Assembly (NCBI RefSeq): GCF_002215035.1
Contig: NZ_NKFP01000006.1
Span: 1,624,530-1,688,529, forward strand
From: Leptolyngbya ohadii IS1
Lineage (GTDB): Bacteria; Cyanobacteriota; Cyanobacteriia; Elainellales; Elainellaceae
Length of the DNA: 64,000 nt
Direction of reading: 5' to 3'
The notes under the pieces are model-generated. The model had not been told where the DNA came from. It searched no databases and saw only the letters and a list, made by a program, of their open reading frames with translations. How positions within the stretch are numbered: the stretch's first letter is position 1; the number at the start of each line of letters is the position of its first letter. Both the position numbers and the translations under genes were made by a program. Below are positions 2,230 to 15,952 of the stretch, one piece after another.

Positions 2230-5200
2230 ATGGGCTTTCAAGCAAGCCCACGATCGGCATTTAAAATTCTTCATTCATCGGTTTACACTATGCCTGACCC
2301 AAACGATGTAACTGCTTTGAAGCCGGAATCCGATCAGGAGACGCATCGCCGTGCGGTATGGGAAGGAGAGCAGTCCACCGCCGATGAGATGGGCGATCGA
2401 TGGGCGATCGTAGTCGGTATCTCGAAATATAAACATAAGCGGCTAAATTTAAAGTACGCGACGCGGGACGCGCAGGAATTTTATAATCTGCTAATTACAC
2501 CTAGTGGGGGACAGTTCAAACCAGAAAATATCGAACTGTTGCTCGACAAAGAAGCTACTACTACCAAAATTACCCGCGCCCTCCGCAGTTTTCTGAAAAA
2601 GCCTGCCCCTGAAGATCTTGTCCTAATTTACTTTGCCTGTCATGGCTCACCCGATCTTGGGCTTCAAGATAAAGCGGTTTTTATCCTGACGCATGATACC
2701 GATCCAGACGATATCGCAGGAACTGCCCTGCCAATGGATGACATTAACTGGTCTTTAATCAACATTCTGAAATCGCAAAAAGTCGTCATTCTGGCGGATA
2801 CCTGCCACAGTGCAGAGATTGGTGGAAAGGGACTGAGAGCCGTTAACGACTCCAATATCACAAACGCCTATTTGAAAAAGCTGAGTGAGTCTAAGGAAGG
2901 GACTGTTCTCATCGCATCGACCAGAGCAGGAGAATTGGCGCAGGAAGGCGCTAAATGGGGTGGAGGACATGGCGTTTTTACCCATTTTTTATTGAGGGGA
3001 ATGGGGGGAGCCGCCGACGCAGATGGAGACGGAATGGTTGGCATTGAGGAGCTATACGATTACGTCCAGAGAAACGTGAGTGACGCAACTCATGGAGCGC
3101 AGAAGCCTACCATTAGCGCTACAAAATATGATCCGACGTTGCCTATTTCCTTTCCAGCCTGGGTTCGATCGCAGCAGCATTATCAACTGGGGTGCCAGCT
3201 CTTTCGGATTGGCGCAAGATTCACCGAGCCACACTGTTTGACCTCAGCGCACCAACACCTGCAAGAAGCGATCGATCTCGCCAGCCTCACTCAAAACGAT
3301 TTGCCCCAGGCGCATTTGCAGCAAGGCTTAGTTTTAATGGCAGATGCAAGATTAAACGCAGCGATTGATGCGCTGAAATCGGCAGTGAAGGCGAACGTTG
3401 CGGAGGCAAAATATTATCTAGGTGTTGCCTACTTGAAACAAGGGAACCGAGACAAAGCAATCCAAGAGTTAGCGGCGTTTTTGCAGGAGCAGCCAGACAG
3501 CGATAAAGCAAACTGGGCAGAAGCATTGCTCTCGCTATTACAACCCTCCGAACCCTCCGATCGCCATGCTCTCCTTATTGGAATTAACTACCCAGAACGA
3601 ATCGACCTGGAAAATAATGCTGGATTTAAACAACTTCATTCTTGCGTGAATGATATTGAGCTGCTTGGTGATTACCTATCAAAGTGTGGCAATTTTAATG
3701 TTAAAAAACTGCCCGATGCCGAAGCAACTTACCTGAATATTAGACAAGCCTTTCATGAGTTGAGTCAGCAGGTCAAGCCCAACGATGTCGTTGTGATCCA
3801 CTACAGCGGGCACGAAAGCTCCGGACGCTGGATTGCCTACGATGCAGGACTCGATGAAAACGGAGCGGTACATAATACGATCGGTTACAAAGAAATTTAT
3901 CAAATGCTGACTGCCATCCCTTGCTTTCACAAGTACCTTGTGATGGATTCGGTGGTGAGCCGTGAGTTTGAAGATTTCCTCAGAATGCTTCAGAAGCATA
4001 AAGATTGTACGCTGTTGTTGGCAGTTTCACCGGGTCAGTACAGCTACGAATTTTCAATTGACGGCAAAAGATTTGGAGCACTGACCTACTGGCTGGTCAA
4101 CACACTGCACAACATAGATAATCTTCTGGAGATGGGGCAAGGAGAGATTTTTCAGCAAGTTGCACAAGCCGTTAACACAAAATTTCCACAGCAGATTCCC
4201 TTCTTTCAGGGCGATCGTCAGAAGAAGCTTTTTTCTGCTGAATTGAATTACTGCCCCATACTATTTGAGCTAACGACAAATCATTGGGAAATTTCTATCC
4301 ACACTTTAGTCGAACTGTATAATCAATTTCTTGTTCAACTGTCCCACTCCTTTCCGCAAATTTATTATCAGTTTGGCATCGCTTTTGCTGAGCAGGGCAG
4401 CTACCCACAGGCTACTCATGCTCTGCAAATTTATCTTGAGCAGGTTCAACAACAGCACTCAAAAGAAATTTTCTTTACGCTAGGAACTGCCCAGTTTAGA
4501 AGTCAGCTTTATCCCGATGCCATTCAAAACTTTCAAAAGTATCTCGAACTGGCTCAATTGGAGTCTGATCCTACTCAATCCATCCTAGATCTGATCGCTC
4601 AAGCGCAAGTATTAGAGAAACCGTTTCATGTATTGCTGGTAGGCATAGGCGAGTATTTATACGATTCAAACCCGCAATATGATCCGAATTTACTCAACGA
4701 TATCGTTTCCTTCAGAGGCACTTTAATTGAGAAGTTTCAATTCAAGGAAAAGGAGCAGATCAGAGACGGGCATGGGCAGGAGCAGTCGCATATTTATATC
4801 GAAAGTGTATTGGATGAAGATGCCACAGCAACAGCAATCGTAGATAAATTCAAAGCGCTGGTCGAGCATTCTCCCGGTCCGACTCTGTTCTACTTTGCAG
4901 GGCGGGGATCGGTTGATGCCGAGGGCAACCCCGTGATTCTCGCGACAGACAGCAGACAACAGAATGTTCCCGATATTAGGATTGAGCAGCTTGCCCAAGT
5001 TGCCCGTGCAGCAGACTGTAATTTAATTGCAATTATCGATGCCTGCTGGACAGACAGTAAAGCCCGAAATACTCGCTATACTCCCCCTGAAGGAGCAAAA
5101 TCCCAAGCAGTGCAAATTCCGGGACGAGTGGAACGCGATGCCAAACAAATTCCTCAAGTTGGCTACATCACTCTCTATCCAGAATCTATCAAGTACAAGC

Positions 5201-5901
5201 AGAAGGAGCGAGTTAAACAAAACTTTACTTCTGAATTAATTGAAATTTTGAAGAAATCAGAGGTCGATCGCTTCTCCTATTGGAAGCTGCGTCAGGCGTT
5301 TGCGCGTAATCTGACGGCTGTAGACTTCGACGATTACGATGGCAATATCTACATTGCAAGTGATAGTAATGCCCTGGATGAACCGATTTTTAGCAATCCA
5401 TTACGCTCCAAGCTGCAATTAAAACTTCAGAAAATTGAGCAGGCTCCCATTAAGCAATCCGTTTCTATTCTTAGAGAGTTTATTGGGCAACAAAATAATT
5501 TATCTCCTGCCGAGTATCTGAATCTGGGACTTACAAACTATCTGCTCGGAGACTATGGCGATAGCATTGCCGCCCTGCAAACCGCTATTAATCAGCTGTC
5601 CGAACAGTCATCAGGAATACTCAGCCAGCGGTTCCTCCTGATTTACGCTCAAGCGCACTACTGGTTAGGGCGAGTGCTGCACGAAAGGCGACTTGACCCT
5701 GCTCGCGCGGTCAGTGAGCTTCGCCTGGCCACACAATACAATCCTTCCAATATCTGCGCACACTATTACTTGGGGCAGGCGCTACGAATACTAGGGGGAC
5801 CAGAAACCCTGATGGAGGCAAAGAGAGCCTTAAGAAACTATCTCAAGCAAGGGGCGCCGCTGGGGCAGGAGGAGGAGATACAGAAGTTTCTAAAGATGTA
5901 G
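2230..5901 (+). CDS. Triple caspase-like domain protein with TPRs (one intact dyad, two degenerate)
   Basis: Numbering is from 2230. Three caspase-like folds alternate with TPR-like helices. Domain 1 (about 55-300) has His138 (FACHGS) and Cys192 (ADTCHSA), plus an EF-hand-like loop DADGDGMVGIEE at 263-274. Domain 2 (about 445-670) keeps His528 (HYSGHES) but has Val575 where Cys is expected (MDSVVS). Domain 3 (about 798-1010) has Arg892 where His is expected (FAGRGS) and keeps Cys939 (IDACWT). TPR-like repeats lie near 340-430, 700-780 and from ~1080 to the C-terminus. A start at 2290 (MPDPNDV) is equally plausible, since neither site has a clear Shine-Dalgarno. Domain 1 is probably the only active unit; domains 2 and 3 may be regulatory or scaffolding pseudoproteases. 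It sits between an active caspase and an unknown protein, so regulation of the neighbouring proteases is a reasonable guess. Confidence 0.85.
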   Translation: MGFQASPRSAFKILHSSVYTMPDPNDVTALKPESDQETHRRAVWEGEQSTADEMGDRWAIVVGISKYKHKRLNLKYATRDAQEFYNLLITPSGGQFKPENIELLLDKEATTTKITRALRSFLKKPAPEDLVLIYFACHGSPDLGLQDKAVFILTHDTDPDDIAGTALPMDDINWSLINILKSQKVVILADTCHSAEIGGKGLRAVNDSNITNAYLKKLSESKEGTVLIASTRAGELAQEGAKWGGGHGVFTHFLLRGMGGAADADGDGMVGIEELYDYVQRNVSDATHGAQKPTISATKYDPTLPISFPAWVRSQQHYQLGCQLFRIGARFTEPHCLTSAHQHLQEAIDLASLTQNDLPQAHLQQGLVLMADARLNAAIDALKSAVKANVAEAKYYLGVAYLKQGNRDKAIQELAAFLQEQPDSDKANWAEALLSLLQPSEPSDRHALLIGINYPERIDLENNAGFKQLHSCVNDIELLGDYLSKCGNFNVKKLPDAEATYLNIRQAFHELSQQVKPNDVVVIHYSGHESSGRWIAYDAGLDENGAVHNTIGYKEIYQMLTAIPCFHKYLVMDSVVSREFEDFLRMLQKHKDCTLLLAVSPGQYSYEFSIDGKRFGALTYWLVNTLHNIDNLLEMGQGEIFQQVAQAVNTKFPQQIPFFQGDRQKKLFSAELNYCPILFELTTNHWEISIHTLVELYNQFLVQLSHSFPQIYYQFGIAFAEQGSYPQATHALQIYLEQVQQQHSKEIFFTLGTAQFRSQLYPDAIQNFQKYLELAQLESDPTQSILDLIAQAQVLEKPFHVLLVGIGEYLYDSNPQYDPNLLNDIVSFRGTLIEKFQFKEKEQIRDGHGQEQSHIYIESVLDEDATATAIVDKFKALVEHSPGPTLFYFAGRGSVDAEGNPVILATDSRQQNVPDIRIEQLAQVARAADCNLIAIIDACWTDSKARNTRYTPPEGAKSQAVQIPGRVERDAKQIPQVGYITLYPESIKYKQKERVKQNFTSELIEILKKSEVDRFSYWKLRQAFARNLTAVDFDDYDGNIYIASDSNALDEPIFSNPLRSKLQLKLQKIEQAPIKQSVSILREFIGQQNNLSPAEYLNLGLTNYLLGDYGDSIAALQTAINQLSEQSSGILSQRFLLIYAQAHYWLGRVLHERRLDPARAVSELRLATQYNPSNICAHYYLGQALRILGGPETLMEAKRALRNYLKQGAPLGQEEEIQKFLKM

Positions 5902-5988
5902 CTTTCCCGTGAATGCCAGCGTTAATGCAGACTGCGATCGAATTCAAAATCAAAAGGCTGATAGCGGTGTACGCAAAGGAGAATTGCC

Positions 5989-6750
5989 ATGTCATCTTCA
6001 GACTACTACTGGTCACGCCACCTGATTCAGGGCTTCGGCAAAATGTGGTTTTTGATTATTCCTCAAGAAGCTGACAGCAGCGGCGGCGGCGCCAGTTTGC
6101 TCGGTTCAGTAGTGAATGAGATTTCTGGCAATCTGTTTCCGGACGGCATCGGCTTCAAAATCGTCGGCAGAGACTTCCCCGAACCCAATCATCTGACAAC
6201 GCCCCAACTGCTGCTGAAGGCGATCGAATCGAATCGCAAAGCAATGGGAATTGCCGACAACGAACAGATTGTGGCAGAGGTGAAATATCCGGATCTCAGC
6301 GTGGTATTTGAGCGATCGGATCTGTTGAAATCGGGTGTGGGAAACTTTCCCAGCCTGCCCGTCTCCCTCAGCGTAGACTACTCCCGTATGGAGAAAATCT
6401 CGATTCAGTTTGGAGCCAATACGCGCAAGCTGTTTATTCCCACCGGATATCTCAGTCAGTTAAAAAACTTTGTTGACGGAGACGACAGCAAAATCACCAC
6501 TTCCATCAGCATCGATAAAGAAACGATCGTTCATCAAATTTTATTAACCGATCGCTACAGCATCACCTTTGAATCTATTTCAGCTTTTGACACGAATTTT
6601 GAAGCGGCGATGAATCTAGCGAATACTCTGAATACAGGCAGAGTGGCATTTAACTTAGAACAAACTGCCAAAAAGCAAGTCACCGTCAGCGTGAATGACG
6701 GCAATGAATATTTGATTGCTCTGAAAGACATCGACTGGGACGACCTTTAG
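5989..6750 (+). CDS. Unknown 253-aa protein in a caspase/CHAT operon; gasdermin-like candidate
   Basis: No family is recognised with certainty. It has a strong ribosome site (AAAGGAG, 7 nt spacing) and lies 87 bp after the triple-caspase gene and 33 bp before the CHAT-WD40 gene. It contains no Cys. An N-terminal hydrophobic stretch (MWFLIIPQ, 19-26) and a Gly/Ser-rich loop (30-40) precede alternating beta segments: SVDYSRMEKISIQFG (128-142), then a short helix-like stretch (PTGYLSQLKNFV), then ETIVHQILLTDRYSITFE (178-195), then RVAFNLEQTAKKQVTVSV (218-235). The length, the order of segments and the position beside caspase-like and CHAT proteases recall bacterial gasdermins (247-272 aa), which are pore-formers released by cleavage of a short C-terminal peptide. 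A basic pair (K228-K229) precedes the last 24 residues. Against this, the palmitoylated N-terminal Cys of characterised bacterial gasdermins is absent. It could equally be an unrelated beta-rich adaptor. Confidence 0.75.
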   Translation: MSSSDYYWSRHLIQGFGKMWFLIIPQEADSSGGGASLLGSVVNEISGNLFPDGIGFKIVGRDFPEPNHLTTPQLLLKAIESNRKAMGIADNEQIVAEVKYPDLSVVFERSDLLKSGVGNFPSLPVSLSVDYSRMEKISIQFGANTRKLFIPTGYLSQLKNFVDGDDSKITTSISIDKETIVHQILLTDRYSITFESISAFDTNFEAAMNLANTLNTGRVAFNLEQTAKKQVTVSVNDGNEYLIALKDIDWDDL

Positions 6751-6783: not shown

Positions 6784-8397
6784 ATGAAAACTATCCTCAT
6801 CCTGTCCTCCAATCCCAAAGGCACTTCTGTTCTTGACCTCGATCGTGAAATTCGGGACATTCGAGAAGGACTGCGGCGATCGAAACACCGCGATCAGTTT
6901 CGGATTGAAGTGCGGGGAGCCGTGCGACCGAGTGATTTACGGCGATCGCTGCTGGATGAGGAACCCCAAATTGTTCACTTTTGCGGGCATGGAAGCGGTG
7001 AAGGTGGACTGGTGCTGGAGACCGATACCGGAGAAGCAAAACCGATCGAAAATGAGGCGCTAGCAGAGCTGTTTGCCCAGTTTGCAGCACAGGTAGAATG
7101 TATTTTGCTGAATGCCTGCTACTCGGAAGTACAAGCCAACACGCTGACTCAGCATATCAACTATGTCGTCGGCATGAATCAAGCCATTCCCGATGCAGCC
7201 GCGATCGCTTTCTCGATTGGCTTCTACGATGCGATCGGAGCCGGAAAATCGATCGCAGATGCCTATGATTTCGGGTGTAACGCAATCAGAACCGATCTGG
7301 CAAACCCTTCTACCGATCGCCGCAAACTAATCCCAATCGACTCTCCCAACAACGCCCCTCCCCCCATCCTGCCAGAACACCTGATCCCGGTGCTGAAGCA
7401 AAAGGAAAAGCTGAATTCGATCGTTCTTCCGTCTCGTACGCCTTCCATGCCAGAATCCCAGTTTGAACCGCTGATTGGTCATTCTGATTGGATTCGAGCG
7501 CTGGCATTTAACTCCAACGATAATACCGTGCTGAGCAGCAGCAACGATCGCACCGTTCGCATCTGGGATGTAGAAGCTGGACGACTCCTGCACCTGCTAA
7601 CCGGACACCGCGATCGAGTCAAGTGTGTGGGCATGAGTCCAGAGGGTCGCTTGATGTTGAGCTGTAGCGTTGATGGGCAGGTCAGAGCATGGGACAGGAG
7701 TCTGCTGACGAACAAGAAGACAGGAGACTGCCGCTATATCGTGAAGGCAACCTCTAGAACGATTACGCTGGTCAACACTTTGCCCGTCAGCCCCGATCCT
7801 CAGCGTCCGATCTTTGCCACCGGAGCAGAACACGGCAAGATTTCGATCTGGAATTTAGAATCTGGACAGTGGCAGCGATCGATTTCGGCTCATAGTAGCC
7901 CGGTGCTATCGCTGGCGTTCAGTGAAGATGGCAGGTGGTTGGCAAGCGGGAGCCAAAACAAAACGATTAAGCTCTGGGATCTGGACAATCCAGTAGAACA
8001 ACCTCACTACGTTATTGGCGATGCTCACCTGAGCCAGGTTTTATCTTTGGCGATTAGCAATCAGCAGCAAATTCTGGTCAGTGGCGGAGCCGATCGCACC
8101 ATCAAACTTTGGGACTTAAGAACAGGAGGAAAGCGATCGCCCAAACACATCCTTGAAGGTCATGCAGGTCAGGTGTGGTGTGTGGCAGTCAGCCCAGACG
8201 GGTCGAAAATAGCCAGTGCCAGCGGAGATTTTACGGTGAAACTGTGGGATATCCAAACGGGAGAACTGCTGCAAACTTTTACAGGACATTTAGGAGAGGT
8301 GCGATCGGTTGCCTTTAGCACCGATGGAAAGCTCCTTGCCAGTGCCGGGGATGATTTGGAGATCAAGCTGTGGCAAGGAAAACCTTTGGAGGAATAA
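6784..8397 (+). CDS. CHAT-domain peptidase fused to seven WD40 repeats
   Basis: Residues 1-215 are a CHAT (caspase HetF-associated with TPRs) peptidase domain with His69 (HFCGHGSGEGG) and Cys112 (LLNACYSEVQ), so the caspase-like dyad is intact. A short Pro-rich linker leads to seven WD40 repeats (about 228-537). Most have GH near the start and IWD/LWD at the end, for example VRIWDV, IKLWDL and VKLWDI. Seven blades would make one complete beta-propeller. The architecture suggests a protease controlled by, or targeted through, its own propeller. It starts 33 bp after the unknown 253-aa gene and ends the co-directional run, facing the amylase gene. No membrane segment is visible. The domain calls are firm; the biological role is inferred from the protease-rich context. 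Confidence 0.9.
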   Translation: MKTILILSSNPKGTSVLDLDREIRDIREGLRRSKHRDQFRIEVRGAVRPSDLRRSLLDEEPQIVHFCGHGSGEGGLVLETDTGEAKPIENEALAELFAQFAAQVECILLNACYSEVQANTLTQHINYVVGMNQAIPDAAAIAFSIGFYDAIGAGKSIADAYDFGCNAIRTDLANPSTDRRKLIPIDSPNNAPPPILPEHLIPVLKQKEKLNSIVLPSRTPSMPESQFEPLIGHSDWIRALAFNSNDNTVLSSSNDRTVRIWDVEAGRLLHLLTGHRDRVKCVGMSPEGRLMLSCSVDGQVRAWDRSLLTNKKTGDCRYIVKATSRTITLVNTLPVSPDPQRPIFATGAEHGKISIWNLESGQWQRSISAHSSPVLSLAFSEDGRWLASGSQNKTIKLWDLDNPVEQPHYVIGDAHLSQVLSLAISNQQQILVSGGADRTIKLWDLRTGGKRSPKHILEGHAGQVWCVAVSPDGSKIASASGDFTVKLWDIQTGELLQTFTGHLGEVRSVAFSTDGKLLASAGDDLEIKLWQGKPLEE

Positions 8398-8425: not shown

Positions 8426-10198
8426 TTAACCCAATACCTGCACTTCCATCGGCTTTAGAGTAATCTGTACTGTATGAAACGTACCGTGAGTTTTACTGGT
8501 AGAGGGTGCGGTAGGGGTAAGCTGAGTTGAGAATAAAATTTTCCAGGATTTACCGACCGGATTGAGATTAGCGTCCACCACTACATAAACCGAGTTTGAC
8601 TGCTGGGTGCTGGTATTGGCAACAATTAACAGTTCTTTGTCGTTCAGAATCCGAGAGTAGGCGATGACGCCACCTTTGTAGGGGGAATAGCTAAAGTTCA
8701 TACCATCACCGCTGCACTTGCGGAAATATTGGCGACCGTAGCGTAAAGCAGGCTGTTCGTCGCGTAATTTGCTGAGTTCCTGAATATGTTTGTAGAGTTC
8801 GTGATTGGGTGAGAAGGCATTCTGTCTACCCCAAAGTGCTTCCCGCACATACTCGCGGCGATCGCCATGACCATCTAAACCCTGCTCAGTCCCATAGTAA
8901 ATACAGGGGATGCCTTGAAGAGTCATCAAGCAGGTTAATGCCAATTTGGTTTGATCGGGGAAGGCTTTATTGTGGAAACGCTCATTCAGATCGTGGTTGT
9001 CCAGAAAGGTGATGTAATGACCACTTGCATCCCCGTGGGAACTGGCGTATTTCCTGAGAATTTGACGGCGATAATCGAGGTGATTCGCTAGGTCACTGGG
9101 GGGCGCAAATCCCTTGACTGCGTTCACTAAACGTTTTCGCACCGGAAAATCAATGGCTGCATCGACCCCAATTAGCTCATCATCCTTGTGGGTATTACGA
9201 CCAACAAATTCAGCGATTTTTTCTTCGTTGTCATCCTGCCAAACTTCCCCAAAAGTAAAGAAATTCTTCTTACCAATAGAGAGGGCAAATTCCCGCATAG
9301 CATTACCGAAAACGCGGGCAAAGTCGGCTTCCACATATTGCAGAGTATCGATCCGGAAACCGTCAAGATCAAATTTCGCAATCAAATATTGATAGGCACG
9401 AATGAGATGATTTCGCACAGGGTAAAGGTTGGTGCCAGGAATCAGGTATTCAGTGACCAGTTCTTTAAGGCGATAGAAGTCTCCCTGCGTAGAATCGTTG
9501 GGATTGTTGTCCCCTCTGCGGCGGAAGTAATCGTTCCGTTGAAATTCTGTTGGCCAGACCCCTGCTCCAGGAGCTAAATTCTGGATTTTCTCAATCGCAG
9601 TCCAGTTGCCTTGAGGGATACCGTCCTCATTGCGCCAGTAAACGGTGTATTCCCTGTTAGGATTCCACGGAGCAGCATCCCGCATCCCCTCATAGTTGAA
9701 GGCATCGTAGACATGGTTGAGAACGATATCGAGGATGACATAAATCCCCTGAGCATGGGCAGCATCCACTAAATCACGAAATTCCTGGTCGGCGATCGCT
9801 GGATCTTGTCTTGCTCCTGCCTCATCCGTACAAAAACGAGGCTCAATGCGGAGAAAATCGAGGATGCCATAGCCACCCCAATAATCTTTAAACCACTGGG
9901 GATTCATCAGGACAGGCGATAGCCAGATGGCACCAACACCCAGATCCTTCAGATAGGGTAGCTGTTGCTTGATCCCGGCTAATTTACCCCCTTGATAAAC
10001 ATTGCAGGGATAGTCGTTGGGATTGGGGGGAGCAGAGGGATGATTGAAGCGATCGACTAAAAGAAAATAGATCCAGAGATCGCGCCAATCCGCAGGCGAT
10101 GGATGGAACGATGTTGATGGCGGAAAATTGGAACCAGGTACCTGAGTTGGCGGATTCAGTACATCATCCACAGCCGGATCATAAAGGGATTTAACCAT
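8426..10198 (-). CDS. Alpha-amylase family (GH13) glycoside hydrolase
   Basis: A (beta/alpha)8 GH13 enzyme acting on alpha-glucans. Visible family motifs are DIVLNHVYD (about 157-165), nucleophile Asp284 in FRIDTLQYVE, acid/base Glu318 in FGEVW, and Asp403 in FLDNHD, so the catalytic triad is complete. The N-terminus (WIYFLLVDRFN) and the C-terminal beta-domain (about 490-590) match usual amylase length (590 aa). No signal peptide is visible, which suggests a cytoplasmic enzyme working on glycogen or maltodextrins. It is monocistronic and convergent with the CHAT-WD40 gene, with only 28 bp between stops. Exact specificity (amylase, neopullulanase or transglycosylase) cannot be read from the sequence. 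Confidence 0.93.
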   Translation of the reverse strand: MVKSLYDPAVDDVLNPPTQVPGSNFPPSTSFHPSPADWRDLWIYFLLVDRFNHPSAPPNPNDYPCNVYQGGKLAGIKQQLPYLKDLGVGAIWLSPVLMNPQWFKDYWGGYGILDFLRIEPRFCTDEAGARQDPAIADQEFRDLVDAAHAQGIYVILDIVLNHVYDAFNYEGMRDAAPWNPNREYTVYWRNEDGIPQGNWTAIEKIQNLAPGAGVWPTEFQRNDYFRRRGDNNPNDSTQGDFYRLKELVTEYLIPGTNLYPVRNHLIRAYQYLIAKFDLDGFRIDTLQYVEADFARVFGNAMREFALSIGKKNFFTFGEVWQDDNEEKIAEFVGRNTHKDDELIGVDAAIDFPVRKRLVNAVKGFAPPSDLANHLDYRRQILRKYASSHGDASGHYITFLDNHDLNERFHNKAFPDQTKLALTCLMTLQGIPCIYYGTEQGLDGHGDRREYVREALWGRQNAFSPNHELYKHIQELSKLRDEQPALRYGRQYFRKCSGDGMNFSYSPYKGGVIAYSRILNDKELLIVANTSTQQSNSVYVVVDANLNPVGKSWKILFSTQLTPTAPSTSKTHGTFHTVQITLKPMEVQVLG

Positions 10199-10848
10199 AG
10201 TAAAACTCCCTGTACGGCACTAATACAGATTTTGCCTTTGGAGCTGTCTACCGGAATTGCGCGAAACTGAAATATGGCTTAGCTGATCTAAAGACAGCCC
10301 ATTTATTATTCAGTTAAAGCTTAGTTGATCCCCAGTAGAACTACTCATTCCGCCACAAAAAATTACCAAGAGGTTAAGCGATCGCAATATCCCTCTATTC
10401 CCTACTGAAATTAGGCTTTAGCTCACCGGGACACTTTGCGGGCGATCGCGCCTCCGTTCTGGAATTAGATAGACTTAAGCTCAGTTTATAGGTCTTCATT
10501 TCTACCGGGACAATCCGCCGCTGGGTCTCCATCAACGTAGACTTGAAGGGAAACAGTCGCACTAATAACCGCTATCCGCAACACAGATTCCCTGGCACTT
10601 TATTCCGTTTGTTGCGGTTCTCAGGCAGTGAGGACACAGAATCTTATCGTCCTTTGACTCTGGAGGACTCGCGCCTTCTGCATTGGTCTGCAATGTCTCT
10701 GGTTCAACTTGAGGGTTGCGGGTCATAGAAGTAACACTTTGTTAAGCGGTCTGCTTTTTTATTCTACAGCCCCGCCCAGAACCGTCATTTTTGTGAAGGC
10801 TCACAAGCCTGCCATTTCTCGTAAAGACGTACAGCAAGGAAACCTGTT
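10199..10848. other. Intergenic region without a recognisable gene
   Basis: About 650 bp between the amylase start and the stop of a small membrane protein gene. It contains HIP1-type GCGATCGC sites, and short ORFs in it have no recognisable motifs. It presumably holds the amylase promoter. Confidence 0.6.
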
Positions 10849-11067
10849 CTATTCCGGGTCTTGTTTCTGTTTGAGTTGTCGAATCGCTTCCTGACTCACC
10901 CCCATCAAGAAACCGATCGTTGCGCCGATCGCCATAAAACCATACTTCTGCTCCCGGTACAGTCCCCCCACGTAGGGCGTGGCAAATAGGGTCGCGAAAA
11001 TGATGCCTAAGCCGATGCCGATCGCCATTGTCACGATTCCGGAAAAAAGCAGCATTCTGTAGTTCAT
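10849..11067 (-). CDS. Small two-helix membrane protein
   Basis: 72 residues with two hydrophobic stretches: LFSGIVTMAIGIGLGIIFATLF near the start and a Gly-rich segment GFMAIGATIGFLMGV in the middle. They are joined by a charged turn (YREQKYG) and followed by a Lys/Gln-rich C-terminus. It starts inside the stop region of the antiporter gene (about 4-bp overlap), so the two are probably translated together and it may associate with the transporter in the membrane. Function unknown. Confidence 0.75.
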   Translation of the reverse strand: MNYRMLLFSGIVTMAIGIGLGIIFATLFATPYVGGLYREQKYGFMAIGATIGFLMGVSQEAIRQLKQKQDPE

Positions 11068-12683
11068 GCCGTCTCCTGGGGCTTGAGGTCTGAGGGTTTA
11101 CTCTGTGTCTCATCCGCAATGTGGGCGTGAATCGGATCGAGCAGACCCGGTAATTCCTGATTTAATCGACCCGATCGCACAAACTCGGTGTAGGTCGTCA
11201 TTTCGATCGCAAACAAATCCCGCTGGAGCTGCTGCTCCCCAATTTCGAGCAGATCCGGATCTTGCTGACAGAGTTTGCTGCTTTCGTCCTGGAGCAGGGC
11301 TAGCTGATGCCGGACTTCTGCTTCCTTTGCCTGATGGATTTCAGGTTCCACTCCAGCTTTAGAGGCAGGCTGCTGCAAGTATTCCAAAACTCGGCTCAGG
11401 GCTGCCTGACGGGAAATGAGTTCCAGATAGCGATCGCGCAGCGGGCTGGGTTCAATTAGTTTGAGTGCTTCTAGGACGGGCTTTGCGGTAGACCCCTGGA
11501 GCAGCGTAGTGAGAAAGACCACGCCGAAGACGGCAACCAGTACCGCACGACGCTCCGGTAGACTTTCGGGCACACTTAGTGCCAGTGCCAGGGCAACGCC
11601 ACCCCGCAATCCGCTCCACCAGAGCATCGTTTGAGTCGGCAAATCAATATCGGATTGGGTCAACCAGTTATTCAAAAAGGTGAGACCGTAGATTACGATC
11701 GCCCGCATCACCAGAACGGCGGCAAAGGCAAGCCCCAGCAGCAGTAGGTCTGAGCCAAACAAATCGAGACGGAACTGAGCACCAATCAGCAAAAACAAAA
11801 TGGAATTGGCAAAGAAAGCGACAAATTCCCAGAACTCGCTGACGGCAACACGGGTACGCGGATTCATGCCGATGCGGGAGCCAAAATTTCCCAAAATTAA
11901 GCCTGTAGCAACGGTGGCAATCACGCCAGAGCCGCCCAGCTTTTCCGCGACGAGGTAGGCAGAATAGGCAGATACCAGCGTTAAGGACTGCTCGACTAAA
12001 GGCAGATCAAACCGCTGCGTCAGATAGGAAATACCGAAGCCCATCAGCAATCCCACCAGCAGCCCCACGCTCACCACCGTCAGAAAGTTGACCAGCAGAT
12101 CTTGTGCGTCAAAGCGATCGGTTCCCAGGGCAATGCCGAGCATCAGGCTAAAGGCAACGACCGCAGTTCCGTCATTGAACATACTTTCCCCTTCCACCAG
12201 TGCCTTGAGTCGGGGCGGTGCTCCCAGCTCCTTCAGCAGGGCACTCACGGAAACGGGATCGGTTGCAGCTAAACAGGCTCCAATCAGCAGGGCAACCGGC
12301 AAAGTAATTCCGCTCCACTGCATCAGCGGCAGAGCAATTCCCACGATCGTAATTCCAACGCCTATCGTGACGTAGAAGGCGATCGGCACCAGGTCTCGCC
12401 GCAAATCCTTCCAGTTAAGATTCCATGCCGCTTCAAACAGGAGGGGCGGCAGAAAGATCCACAGAATCAGTGCTGGGGAGGGGGTAAAAAAGCGAATATC
12501 TAGCACAGCTAGTCCCATTCCTGTCAGCACCAGCATCAGCGTATAGGGAAACTGCCGCAGCCAGGGGACAATCTGCGAGAGGGTGGCAACGACCGCAGTT
12601 CCGTCATTGAACATACTTTCCCCTTCCACCAGTGCCTTGAGTCGGGGCGGTGCTCCCAGCTCCTTCAGCAGGGCAACCGGCAA
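11064..12683 (-). CDS. Na+/H+ antiporter (CPA1/NhaP type), N-terminus rearranged
   Basis: Membrane exchanger of the CPA1 family with about ten visible membrane helices. Motifs include FPYTLMLVLTG, LWIFLPPLLFEAAW, the ion-binding GACLAATDPVSV and EGESMFNDGTAVVAF, with a cytosolic C-terminal tail rich in Leu/Gln/Glu. The first ~33 residues of the open frame (from a TTG at 12683) are a copy of the internal segment LLKELGAPPRLKALVEG...GTAVVA. This comes from the 251-bp mosaic at 12585-12835, so the natural first helix and start codon are missing. Authentic-looking sequence begins near ATLSQIVPWLRQFPYTL. Unless translation begins elsewhere the protein is probably impaired. It overlaps the pump's 3' end by 19 bp on the same strand. 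Confidence 0.85.
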   Translation of the reverse strand: MPVALLKELGAPPRLKALVEGESMFNDGTAVVATLSQIVPWLRQFPYTLMLVLTGMGLAVLDIRFFTPSPALILWIFLPPLLFEAAWNLNWKDLRRDLVPIAFYVTIGVGITIVGIALPLMQWSGITLPVALLIGACLAATDPVSVSALLKELGAPPRLKALVEGESMFNDGTAVVAFSLMLGIALGTDRFDAQDLLVNFLTVVSVGLLVGLLMGFGISYLTQRFDLPLVEQSLTLVSAYSAYLVAEKLGGSGVIATVATGLILGNFGSRIGMNPRTRVAVSEFWEFVAFFANSILFLLIGAQFRLDLFGSDLLLLGLAFAAVLVMRAIVIYGLTFLNNWLTQSDIDLPTQTMLWWSGLRGGVALALALSVPESLPERRAVLVAVFGVVFLTTLLQGSTAKPVLEALKLIEPSPLRDRYLELISRQAALSRVLEYLQQPASKAGVEPEIHQAKEAEVRHQLALLQDESSKLCQQDPDLLEIGEQQLQRDLFAIEMTTYTEFVRSGRLNQELPGLLDPIHAHIADETQSKPSDLKPQETA

Positions 12684-12835
12684 AGTAATTCCGCTCCACT
12701 TGCAATCACCAGTGGAAAAAAGCCCACCAGGGAAGAGGCGGCGGTCATGATGATGGGGCGAAATCGCTCTTTGGAGGCTTTGAGGGCGGCATCGGTGAGT
12801 TTTAAGCCTTCCGATCGCGCCTGATTCGCAAATTC
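12585..12835. repeat. 251-bp mosaic made of three copied flanking segments
   Basis: Every base is an exact copy of nearby sequence. 12585-12675 equals 12153-12243 (91 bp, antiporter). 12665-12700 equals 12284-12319 (36 bp, antiporter). 12691-12835 equals 12940-13084 (145 bp, RND pump). Joints overlap by 11 bp (TCAGCAGGGCA) and 10 bp (CCGCTCCACT). It replaces the 3' end of the pump gene and the 5' end of the antiporter gene. Confidence 0.9.
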
Positions 12836-15800
12836 TTTGATCAGGATGTAGAGGACGGGGACGAGTAGCAAACTCAGGATGGTGGAGACGAGCAATCCGC
12901 CGAATAGGGCAGTTCCCAGCGACCAGCGAGCAGCGGCTCCCGCTCCACTTGCAATCACCAGTGGAAAAAAGCCCACCAGGGAAGAGGCGGCGGTCATGAT
13001 GATGGGGCGAAATCGCTCTTTGGAGGCTTTGAGGGCGGCATCGGTGAGTTTTAAGCCTTCCGATCGCGCCTGATTCGCAAATTCCACAATCAGGATGGCG
13101 TTTTTGCTGGCAAGTCCGATCAGCATCACCAGTGCCACGTTGCAGTAGACATCGTTGGTTAAACCGCGCAGGGCGATCGCTCCTAATGCGCCTAAGAGAG
13201 CCAGGGGAACCGTCAGCAGAATAATAATCGGGTCAATATAGCTTTCGTACTGGGCGGACAGGGTGAGGAACACCATAATGATCCCGAAGGCAAAGATCAG
13301 TGCCCCTAATCCTCCGGCGGCAAGCTGTTCGCGGGCAATGCCAATCCAGTCTCGTCCTACGCCTGGGAGAGCGGCTTCCTGGTATGCGGTTTCCATTGCT
13401 TCGATCGACTGTCCGCTGCTGTAGCCGGGGGCTGATCCGCCTCGTAGCAGGATCGATCGATAGCTGTTGTAGCGGCTAATCACCTGGGGTCCGGTGGTAC
13501 GGCTAATGGTGGCAATCTGGGACAGCGGCACTAAAACACCTGTGCGGGAGCGGACGTAGAGCCTGCCAATATCTTCGGGAGAGTCGCGGAAAATGCCGTC
13601 TGCCTGGACAAAGACGCGAAAATTGCGGTTGCCCAGCGTGAAATCGTTGACGAACTGCGAACCCAATGTTGCGCCAATGGTGGCAAGTGCCTGCTGAAAG
13701 TCGATATTGAGCGATTCCACTTTATTGCGATCGATGTCCAGGCGCAATCGCGGCGTTCCGGTAGTGAAGGTGGTGGAAACGGTGCCTGCGGTTGCCGGAA
13801 GTTCGTTCGCTCTAGCGACAATTTGACGGGCATTGGCAGCAAAATCATCGACTGTGAGCTGTCCGCCGCTGCGATCCTGAATCTGCATTTCGCTTCCGCC
13901 CGTGGCACTGAAGCCGGGAATGGGGGAGGGGTTGAGTGCCATCACGATCGCGTCTGTAATGGTCTGGAATTTGCCGTTCAGGGTTCGCAGAATGCTCGTC
14001 ACACTTTGATCTGGATTGGTGCGCTCGCTCCAGGGTTTCAGTCGGGCGAAAAACAAGCCCAGATTTGAACCATTGCCGTCAAAGCCAGCCCCGCTAACCG
14101 TGAAGGTGGACGCAATTTCGGGAATCTGACGCATCTGCTGTTCTGCCTGCGCCAGCACGCGATCGGTATAGCTGAGAGACACGCCATCCGGTCCCTGCAC
14201 AATCCCCACAAACGCCCCCTGATCCTCATCCGGCACAAAGGCAGTTGGCACGGCGGTAAACATATAGACCGTCGCTAGCAGACCCACCACAAACAGACCG
14301 AGAACGATGTACTTAATCCGAATAAAGAACTGCACCAGCCGCAGAAATCGATCGCTTACCCAGGCAAATCCCCGGTTGAATTTCTCAAAAAACCAGTTCA
14401 ATCGACCGAAGCACCAGCCTAACGGACCTGACATCGGCTGCGCTGGACCTAGCAAAAGCGCCGCCATACTGGGGCTAAAGCTGAGGGCATTAAACGTGGA
14501 AACGGCGATCGCAAAGGCAATAATTAGAGCGAACTGCTGATATAACTTTCCGGTCGATCCAGGGAAAAACGCCACCGGGATAAACACTGCCATCAGTACC
14601 AGAGACGTAGCGATCGTCGCGCCGCTCAGTTCTTCCATCGAAGCGGTCGCTGCCTGTTTTGCCGTCATGCCCTGATGCTGAATCTTTTCCGTACAGGACT
14701 CCACAATCACGATCGCATCATCCACCACCAGACCCGTCGCCAGAATTAAGCCAAACAGGGTGAGGTTGTTAATCGAGAAGCCAAACAAAAAGGCAAATGC
14801 CATTGCGCCGATCAGCGCCACCGGGATGGCGATCAGCGGAATGACCGTGGTGCGCCAGTCCTGCAAAAAGATGAAGATGACCAGCACCACCAGCAAAAAG
14901 GCTTGCAGCAGCGTGATCACTACTTCCCGGATCGACACTTCCACAAATTCGGTGGTGTCAAACACCAGTTCCGCTTTGAGTCCGGGAGGGAAGTTTGCCT
15001 CGATCTGCTTCATTTCAGTTGCAATGCGATCGGCGATATCCAGGGCATTGCTGTCGGGAGCTTGATACACGGCAATCCCCACGCCCACCTTGCCATTCAC
15101 TCTGGCATTGCTGACATAGCGTTCTGCGCCCAGTTCCGCCCGTCCCACGTCTCGCAGCCGGGTGAGTCCGCCGTTAGAATCGCGCTGCACCACCAGATTG
15201 CTAAACTCCTGGGCATTGGCAAAGCGTCCCTCGACCTGCACGGGTAGCTCAAAATTCTGTCCTGTGGGAACTGGCTCCTGTCCAATCCCGCCTGCTCCGA
15301 CGACGACGTTTTGCGATCGCAGCGCATTGATCACATCCAGAGCCGTCAAATTGCGGCTGGCAAGGGCATTCGGATCGAGCCAGAGGCGCATCGCATTCGG
15401 CTTATCCCCAAACGACTGCACATCGCCGACACCGGGAACCCGCTGCAACACTTCGACAATATTTTGATCGACATAGTTGCTGATGAAAATATCATCGTAG
15501 GCATTCTCTTCGCTATACACGCCGTAGATTAATAAAATGCTGCTGGAGCTGGCACGAGTCGTGACGCCCAACTGCTGGACTGGAGTCGGTAACTGGGCAA
15601 CTGCCTGCGCTACCCGATTCTGGACGTTCACCTGATTCGTATTTTTGTCCGTATCGGAGCCAAAGAAAACCGAGATCTGGCTATTTCCGGCGAAGGTATT
15701 CGAGGTCATGTACTCCATGCCTTCCACCCCGTTGATCTGCCGTTCGATAACTCCAGTGACGGTATCCTCGACCGTGTTGGCATCCGCACCGCTATAACGG

Positions 15801-15952
15801 GCATTTACACGAATTTGAATTGGCGCGATATCGGGCAGATAGTTAATCGGCAACAGGGGAATACAGACTGCCCCCAACAGCAGAATGACCAGCGTACAGA
15901 CGGTTGTGAGAACGGGGCGTTTAATGAAGGGTGTGGCGATCGAGAAAATCAT
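12665..15952 (-). CDS. RND-family (HAE1-type) multidrug efflux pump, C-terminus rearranged
   Basis: Inner-membrane proton-driven drug exporter of the AcrB type, working with a membrane fusion protein and an outer-membrane channel. The N-terminus MIFSIATPFIKRPVLTTV, the porter repeats, the central helices with GLVVDDAIVIVE and the C-terminal helices with LVMLIGLASKNAILIVEFA are all present. The expected end (VPVLYILIK, close to residue 1035) is followed by ~58 residues that repeat an internal segment starting EFANQARSEGLKLTD and finish with the foreign tail ELLCRLPC. This aberrant end comes from the mosaic at 12585-12835. The core pump is otherwise full length. The ATG at 15952 follows AAGAGA. 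The membrane fusion protein gene lies 203 bp upstream on the same strand. Confidence 0.93.
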   Translation of the reverse strand: MIFSIATPFIKRPVLTTVCTLVILLLGAVCIPLLPINYLPDIAPIQIRVNARYSGADANTVEDTVTGVIERQINGVEGMEYMTSNTFAGNSQISVFFGSDTDKNTNQVNVQNRVAQAVAQLPTPVQQLGVTTRASSSSILLIYGVYSEENAYDDIFISNYVDQNIVEVLQRVPGVGDVQSFGDKPNAMRLWLDPNALASRNLTALDVINALRSQNVVVGAGGIGQEPVPTGQNFELPVQVEGRFANAQEFSNLVVQRDSNGGLTRLRDVGRAELGAERYVSNARVNGKVGVGIAVYQAPDSNALDIADRIATEMKQIEANFPPGLKAELVFDTTEFVEVSIREVVITLLQAFLLVVLVIFIFLQDWRTTVIPLIAIPVALIGAMAFAFLFGFSINNLTLFGLILATGLVVDDAIVIVESCTEKIQHQGMTAKQAATASMEELSGATIATSLVLMAVFIPVAFFPGSTGKLYQQFALIIAFAIAVSTFNALSFSPSMAALLLGPAQPMSGPLGWCFGRLNWFFEKFNRGFAWVSDRFLRLVQFFIRIKYIVLGLFVVGLLATVYMFTAVPTAFVPDEDQGAFVGIVQGPDGVSLSYTDRVLAQAEQQMRQIPEIASTFTVSGAGFDGNGSNLGLFFARLKPWSERTNPDQSVTSILRTLNGKFQTITDAIVMALNPSPIPGFSATGGSEMQIQDRSGGQLTVDDFAANARQIVARANELPATAGTVSTTFTTGTPRLRLDIDRNKVESLNIDFQQALATIGATLGSQFVNDFTLGNRNFRVFVQADGIFRDSPEDIGRLYVRSRTGVLVPLSQIATISRTTGPQVISRYNSYRSILLRGGSAPGYSSGQSIEAMETAYQEAALPGVGRDWIGIAREQLAAGGLGALIFAFGIIMVFLTLSAQYESYIDPIIILLTVPLALLGALGAIALRGLTNDVYCNVALVMLIGLASKNAILIVEFANQARSEGLKLTDAALKASKERFRPIIMTAASSLVGFFPLVIASGAGAAARWSLGTALFGGLLVSTILSLLLVPVLYILIKEFANQARSEGLKLTDAALKASKERFRPIIMTAASSLVGFFPLVIASGAELLCRLPC

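Follow-up and report, generated by a model that had tools for sequence, protein, structure and literature searches.

The window, a stretch of 64,000 nucleotides from Leptolyngbya ohadii IS1, contains a run of four genes on the forward strand whose coordinates leave gaps of 25, 87 and 33 bp. The first, CASP1 (93-2204, +), encodes a 703-residue caspase-like protein matching Pfam Peptidase_C14, in which a motif search places the His motif (YSGHGG) at residue 112 and the Cys motif (LDSCHS) at residue 173. It is followed by CASP3 (2230-5901, +), which also matches Peptidase_C14 and encodes a 1223-residue triple caspase and TPR protein; by motif search, domain 1 keeps both the His and the Cys motifs, domain 2 lacks the Cys motif and domain 3 has Arg instead of His. 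The third gene (5989-6750, +; 253 codons with an ATG start) is preceded by a Shine-Dalgarno-like AAAGGAG (5975-5981, +), read from the sequence 7 nt 5' of the ATG, and encodes a 253-residue orphan that has been proposed to be a gasdermin-like pore former; we refer to its family as F253. The run closes with CHAT-WD40 (6784-8397, +), a 537-residue protein combining a CHAT protease-like domain (PADLOC chat model over the N-terminal part, E 2.5e-23; Cys motif LNACYS at residue 109 by motif search) with WD40 repeats found by Pfam. An earlier note had described this orphan between caspase-like and CHAT genes with gaps of 87 and 33 bp, on which coordinates, Pfam and PADLOC agree, and had counted three caspase folds plus a WD40-CHAT protein; all of these are present, but only the first domain of CASP3 keeps both motifs. 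The motifs of CASP1, CASP3 domain 1 and CHAT-WD40, together with the sensor and STAND parts, are those of a caspase/STAND conflict system. Elsewhere in the window (11064-15952, -), two adjacent ORFs, which we take to be antiporter-like and RND-efflux-like, each carry, at one end, a repeat of part of their own sequence (ALLKELGAPPRLKALVEGESMFNDGTAVVA; EFANQARSEGLKLTDAALKASKERFRPIIMTAASSLVGFFPLVIASGA), which a duplication or an assembly join could explain.

The F253 gene looks real at the sequence level because it has a Shine-Dalgarno-like site and relatives and because nonsynonymous differences are far fewer than synonymous ones. The pair formed by the window protein and that of Drouetiella hepatica (G025) gives pN 0.100 and pS 0.771, and the pair with Elainella saxicola (G030) gives pN 0.232 and pS 0.815; we report pN and pS instead of dN/dS because synonymous sites are near saturation. 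Members are 82, 61, 59 and 52% identical to the window protein. Seven of 388 cyanobacterial genomes, the window's own counted, carry F253, and all seven belong to one family. Five of the copies are whole, that of FACHB-502 (G001) spans about residues 165-253 and that of G019 is a pseudogene. The window's genome also holds a second remnant, corresponding to residues 224-251 (L019:7247-7321), which lies upstream of the window and directly 5' of a CHAT-NACHT-HEAT gene.

As the earlier note had stated, the protein falls in no recognized family: searches of Pfam, NCBIfam, PADLOC, PHROGs and PDB sequences gave no significant match to F253. The best sub-threshold matches of the window protein are Pfam Lip_C (E 0.049) and a PHROGs family (E 0.087), with none in PADLOC or NCBIfam, and gasdermins were not found among the PDB matches with either F253 or the F253 profile as query. 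One PDB profile match, 4rzp (E 1.1e-4), was rejected as an engineered repeat protein in which five tiny repeat matches are summed, none of them significant alone. Weak matches of the F253 profile elsewhere (best E 8.6e-4) were rejected after ten loci had been read: those at L023, L027, L029, L032 and L033 span only about 46 to 67 residues each, in what are presumably GGDEF-EAL proteins, those at L028 and L030 fall in other large proteins, that at L025 has no covering ORF, and the two at L024 and L026 are minus-strand matches. Relatives of F253 were not found in plasmids either. The absence of an N-terminal Cys, which the earlier note had remarked on, extends to the whole protein, as there is no Cys anywhere in the 253 residues, nor among the first ten of any of the five aligned members. 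The peak 19-residue hydropathy is 0.74, with no evident transmembrane segment. The C-terminal end is among the best-conserved parts, with nine of the last 13 residues invariant across five members.

Caspase/CHAT genes lie within about 10 kb of F253 at four of the seven loci (the window, G025, G010 and G001), against a baseline in which one of 60 samples of 20 kb, taken from the window's chromosome, contained a relative of these domains; the baseline represents one chromosome, and the stretches read around F253 vary in length from 9.9 to 20 kb, that of G027 being one-sided. Relatives of CASP1 at E<=1e-60 occur in 8 of the 145 genomes of the class sample, the window's own counted, and five of the seven F253 genomes have one, four of them within the 145-genome sample and G010 apart from it. 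G019 and G027 have no CASP1 relative at E<=1e-30. Conversely, the CASP1 loci of G084, G142, G177, G118 and G012 and a second one in Elainella contain neither F253 nor a bacterial gasdermin (bGSDM) in the stretch read.

The gene order at these loci is recurrent. Just upstream of the window, L019 encodes a phage-type lysozyme and a VanY peptidase, each with a PG-binding part, and a second CASP1, and genes for a CHAT-NACHT-HEAT and a caspase-nSTAND1 protein are also found upstream; an identification of two of the upstream genes as EACC1-type components was dropped because Pfam identifies them as lysozyme and VanY. In FACHB-502 the order is lysozyme, VanY, CASP1, CHAT-NACHT, LCAT lipase, SEC450, F253 remnant and CHAT, with SEC450 ahead of the remnant by 44 bp. 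In Drouetiella it is an M74/PG-binding/GH19 protein, CASP1, CHAT-NACHT, LCAT, CHAT, CHAT-WD40, a CASP3 fragment, F253 and CHAT/AAA. The Elainella copy stands behind a GH25 lysozyme, a C39 peptidase and a PG-binding/GH19 protein, which are wall hydrolases, not proteases, and neither proteases nor wall hydrolases lie near the G019 pseudogene or, on the one side read, the G027 gene. SEC450, a protein of about 450 residues with a hydrophobic N terminus, recurs in cassettes (L017:9777-11132, L176:3925-5253, L178:6280-7650 and L181:2497-3846); its G001 copy has no Pfam match. In our judgement F253 is likely to be part of a caspase/CHAT cassette.

Small, soluble-looking and encoded with short gaps between two protease genes, F253 could act as a brake, that is, an inhibitor or antidote keeping the neighboring caspase or CHAT protein inactive until it is cut or removed, and its conserved acidic C-terminal end, KDIDWDDL, might then serve as bait. 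We regard this as improbable. The Elainella and G027 copies have no protease gene in the stretch read, G027 also lacking a CASP1 relative, and F253 has decayed beside unbroken caspase/CHAT ORFs both in FACHB-502 and at the second place in the window's genome, which would be ill tolerated if F253 were a needed antidote.

In Drouetiella, contractile injection genes (L190:1-13000, L185:31-6207) encoding a sheath, a gp19 tube protein, Pvc16 and an AAA ATPase stand directly upstream of the hydrolase-caspase-CHAT-F253 cassette. In G027, Mu-type portal and terminase genes are found near F253 (L016:982-4986), which may place this copy at a prophage border. These two loci would fit an F253 that is a passenger or cargo of phage-like machinery, whether a contractile injection system or a prophage, a reading to which we give very little credence. 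The link to contractile injection genes is seen in one locus; a blastp search for relatives of the Drouetiella injection genes came back empty for the window's first 30 kb, for L189 upstream of it and for the G010 and Elainella stretches, the ORFs at L019 and in the stretch from G001 either belong to the cassette or match something else, and F253 is without a match in 50,697 phage records or in a viral-contig scan with two short patterns.

We also searched the 388 cyanobacterial genomes with the solved bGSDM 7n51, which yielded clear bGSDMs in G258 (276 aa, E 5.1e-38) and G080 (482 aa, E 1.0e-28), and a fragment in G068 (E 3.1e-24) that lies 280 bp from SEC450; a fourth bGSDM is on a Gloeothece plasmid (E 1e-22). 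G258 belongs to a different family from the window's genome, and its cassette is related to the one found there. The G258 bGSDM gene lies 460 bp upstream of, and on the opposite strand from (divergent), a lysozyme gene whose product matches that of the window's genome at 72% over its first part but is shortened; the lysozyme gene is followed by a C39/PG peptidase, CASP1 (58%), a broken CHAT-NACHT gene and LCAT, and the other side of the bGSDM carries SEC450 and another CHAT. Two further ORFs (L176:6723-7858 and 14252-15241) are presumably transposase-like, and one of them splits the CHAT-NACHT gene; with its lysozyme gene shortened as well, the G258 gasdermin cassette may be decaying. F253 thus occupies cassettes of the kind that in G258 carries a gasdermin.

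The bGSDM gene of G080 (L177:8275-9723) is flanked by genes for a YkuD-glucosaminidase (7025-8119) and a subtilase (9765-11216), so that, of the four bGSDM loci seen, two (G258 and G080) have wall-enzyme genes next to the bGSDM. Its product carries a C-terminal extension of about 240 residues with His/Asp motifs, which we take to resemble those of zinc wall peptidases; Pfam gave no match, either for the full protein or for its final 198 residues. On the Gloeothece plasmid no protease or wall hydrolase is listed alongside the bGSDM, in a gene table that is incomplete.

Sequence comparison between F253 and bGSDMs gave mixed results. We built a profile HMM, A3, from five real bGSDMs and ran it unfiltered against 896 proteins, namely the five F253 members and 891 background ORFs. 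The background was drawn from the window, the loci L013-L018 around F253, L019 and the 60 stretches sampled from the window's chromosome, and was cleared of F253 copies. HMMER reported 504 of the 896. The E-values of the G258 and G080 bGSDMs against A3 are circular, as both are rows of it, whereas those to 7n51 are independent. The two top-ranked proteins were F253 members, from G027 (13.5 bits, E 0.002) and Elainella (8.8 bits, E 0.056), while the G010 member ranked 12th, the window's own 20th with 1.1 bits and that of Drouetiella 49th; the family consensus scored 0.9 bits. In an earlier ranking that included loci fetched for matching A3, four of these stood above the best F253 member. Among 20,000 shuffles of each of four members, the real score was reached by none for G027, 6 for Elainella, 312 for G010 and 980 for the window protein. 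The highest shuffles of the Elainella, G010 and window members, however, scored 14.0 to 18.4 bits, above the best real score, which places 13.5 bits within the reach of chance.

A six-row bGSDM profile lowered the best F253 score to 9.2 bits and moved the Elainella member to rank 5 in HMMER. With the same profile in hhalign, the F253 members ranked 7 (G027), 40, 92, 102 and 139 (window) by score among 334 proteins, and the only one of the 334 to align over at least 80 columns was the G027 member. When fit was restricted to the core, the two best members ranked 2 and 6 of 793, and among 265 proteins of similar length the five ranked 1, 2, 17, 21 and 37; fit to the full-length profile was unfavorable (18, 27, 79, 130 and 259 of 793). 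A semi-global score tolerant of very short end overlaps was of no help, placing F253 members 40th to 84th of 144. In the reciprocal direction, with F253 as the profile, six bGSDMs came 9th to 90th of the 187 proteins reported by HMMER, not above background, and 11th to 250th of 335 in hhalign, where two unrelated proteins and no bGSDM aligned over at least 80 columns. Profile-profile comparison by hhalign gave P 0.046 and 0.19, and a bGSDM HMM run against the 388 genomes reported no F253 gene.

The weak alignment nonetheless has an ordered register. Residues 126-250 of F253 (6364-6738, +) align in order with the beta-hairpin core of bGSDM, and by eye SVDYSRMEKISIQF corresponds to EAQYNQARKVRFEF of 7n51 and HQILLTDRYSITFE to TQVIKSNEFTVAAE, with GRVAFNLE and VTVSV opposite GKLKVE and VTYKG. 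We consider this sequence evidence suggestive, not proof. We do not assign F253 to bGSDM, given that it lacks the N-terminal Cys and that its homology to bGSDMs is uncertain.

AlphaFold2 models of F253, built from alignments with no gasdermin rows, are too poor to decide its fold. The full-length model (three rows) has a mean pLDDT of 39.6, at which a Foldseek search is meaningless, and that of the fragment 117-253 (four rows) reaches pLDDT 63.0 and pTM 0.58. At low confidence, the predicted order of strands and helices in the C-terminal half fits the gasdermin core by our reading. Foldseek with the fragment model returned nothing at E<=0.001, gasdermin or otherwise, and 7n51 was 27th (E 0.42, TM 0.24). 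The best VIA-align matches of the fragment model were to Pol II (Z 4.8), which we take to reflect a common arrangement, and gasdermins are absent among the best 50 matches listed.

The earlier note had also pointed to a Lys pair at residues 228-229 followed by 24 residues, both of which we confirm (6670-6675, +; K229 is invariant in the five aligned members), and to activation by removal of a C-terminal peptide at this pair, which our analysis does not support. The pair sits at a turn between two low-confidence predicted strands (219-225 and 229-236), and the C-terminal end is conserved; by the weak bGSDM alignment, moreover, the chain appears to end about where the last core strand ends. If YLIALKDI corresponds to that strand, an assignment that depends on the weak alignment and on the end of 7n51 as read by eye, only DWDDL remains.

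The comparison with bGSDM (7n50, 7n51/8sl0 and 7n52/9v2s) is one of likenesses and differences. F253 resembles these proteins in size (253 residues, against chains of 259-268 residues in 7n50, 7n51 and 7n52), in having protease genes as close neighbors, in the predicted order of strands and helices in its C-terminal half, in its weak colinear profile similarity and in its presence in a cassette of the G258 type. It differs in that the window's own member has no significant similarity, in that a protein free of Cys has no N-terminal Cys to be palmitoylated (for the role of this residue in bGSDM, see the portion of PMC10989679 consulted), in having about 30 additional residues ahead of the core and, by the alignment, in having almost nothing after the last strand. 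Activation by tail removal is ill suited to such a protein, and fungal RCD-1 provides a precedent for a gasdermin-like protein without an inhibitory domain, as described in the part of PMC11760362 available to us. RCD-1 works as a pair of alleles in fungi, and F253 is found alongside proteases.

One explanation of these data is that F253 does not form pores. It would then serve the caspase/CHAT cassette in some other way, as an effector, an adaptor or a structural partner, and would be a lineage-specific orphan that is perhaps a protease substrate or scaffold; its likeness to gasdermin would be a chance one between beta-rich proteins and the G258 bGSDM would have been recruited separately. The lack of a significant match in family libraries or PDB sequences, the negative reciprocal tests, the ranks of 12, 20 and 49 among 896 for three of the five members, and structure searches without a convincing match in Foldseek or VIA-align all favor this explanation. 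It has more difficulty with the two members that, aligned colinearly, head the ranking of 896 proteins by a profile of real bGSDMs and with a genuine bGSDM in a related and uncommon cassette. We regard it as a serious possibility, with a chance clearly below one half and only just behind that of the gasdermin-like reading.

The reading that we tentatively prefer, while judging its own probability to be clearly below one half, is that F253 is a divergent pore former of gasdermin-like type, in a self-lysis (conflict) cassette under protease control. The original gasdermin idea survives, partly supported: the genuine bGSDM in the G258 cassette and the two members that lead the A3 ranking, in the register that the earlier note had proposed, add to it, but the window's own member scores at rank 20, the reciprocal search fails to separate bGSDMs from the background, and the structural check offers poor models. 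We have trimmed the weight of the gasdermin reading and raised that of the non-pore one because shuffled versions of other members outscore the best real one and the full-length comparison goes against it. What we observed are the order of the genes, the protease motifs, the conservation, the recurring cassette, the G258 bGSDM and the lack of a strongly hydrophobic N-terminal segment in the wall hydrolases tested; the fold of F253, pore formation, activation and the export step are inferences.

On the gasdermin-like reading, F253 would be the membrane-permeabilizing part of the cassette, soluble and inactive at rest. WD40, TPR or NACHT sensor parts would trigger the neighboring caspase/CHAT proteases, which in turn would alter the state of F253 and lead to its assembly in the cytoplasmic membrane. 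Since the protein lacks Cys altogether and, as aligned, ends without a C-terminal peptide, activation by internal cleavage or by contact seems more likely than removal of a C-terminal tail. The resulting pore would kill the cell and release the folded, signal-less lysozyme, VanY or C39 peptidases and lipase, an export role like that of a holin for its endolysin.

The wall hydrolases themselves are consistent with such a step. In 16 of them the maximum 17-residue hydropathy near the N terminus is at most 1.42, compared with 1.70 to 2.36 in three SEC450 copies; this is a crude test and not a signal-peptide predictor, and the M74 protein of Drouetiella stands outside the 16. With no strongly hydrophobic N-terminal segment, these enzymes would depend on an opening in the membrane to get to the wall. 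Hydrolases without a signal peptide would need a hole in the membrane, which is the logic of phage holin-endolysin cassettes. F253 cassettes resemble those of phages in encoding wall hydrolases without an evident signal peptide, including a phage-type lysozyme and VanY, and differ from them in that caspase/CHAT proteases are encoded alongside; F253 also differs from holins in its lack of an evident transmembrane segment. In the sections of PMC9950537 consulted, bGSDM pores measure 20-30 nm, a size that could pass folded enzymes.

With its caspase, CHAT, NACHT and nSTAND proteins, the multi-gene island of the window also resembles the caspase/STAND/EAD conflict systems of multicellular bacteria, from whose components F253 differs in belonging to a family without a match in the libraries searched. 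Kaur et al. 2020 (PMC7159879), in the portion consulted, describe a peptidase system whose effectors include lysozyme and papain-like peptidoglycan peptidases, and the term gasdermin is absent from its main text. No title on a link between bGSDM and wall hydrolysis appeared in the literature searched, outside which most subscription papers lie, and this is not proof of novelty.

A second process may be connected with these cassettes. In Anabaena ghost cells, peptidoglycan and outer membrane were missing in 88 of 88 cells seen, according to the part of PMC8894136 consulted, and the text consulted does not name the enzymes behind this loss of the wall. The position of the Drouetiella cassette behind contractile injection genes makes a link to ghost cells worth testing, though one locus is no proof. 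More speculatively, and with odds we rate as rather low, cyanobacteria may possess a gasdermin-type holin, a protease-gated pore made by a genuine bGSDM in some genomes and by the Cys-less and apparently tail-less F253 in others, which would both kill the cell and free cytosolic lysozyme, peptidases and a lipase to dissolve the wall. Such a cassette could furnish the enzyme set missing from ghost-cell formation. If the gasdermin-like reading is true, gasdermins would extend to a family without an N-terminal Cys and, by alignment, without an inhibitory tail. Gasdermin pores would also be tied to wall hydrolysis, a second step of lytic death that the pore alone leaves unexplained, and the enzymes that remove the wall in ghost-cell formation would become a testable question.
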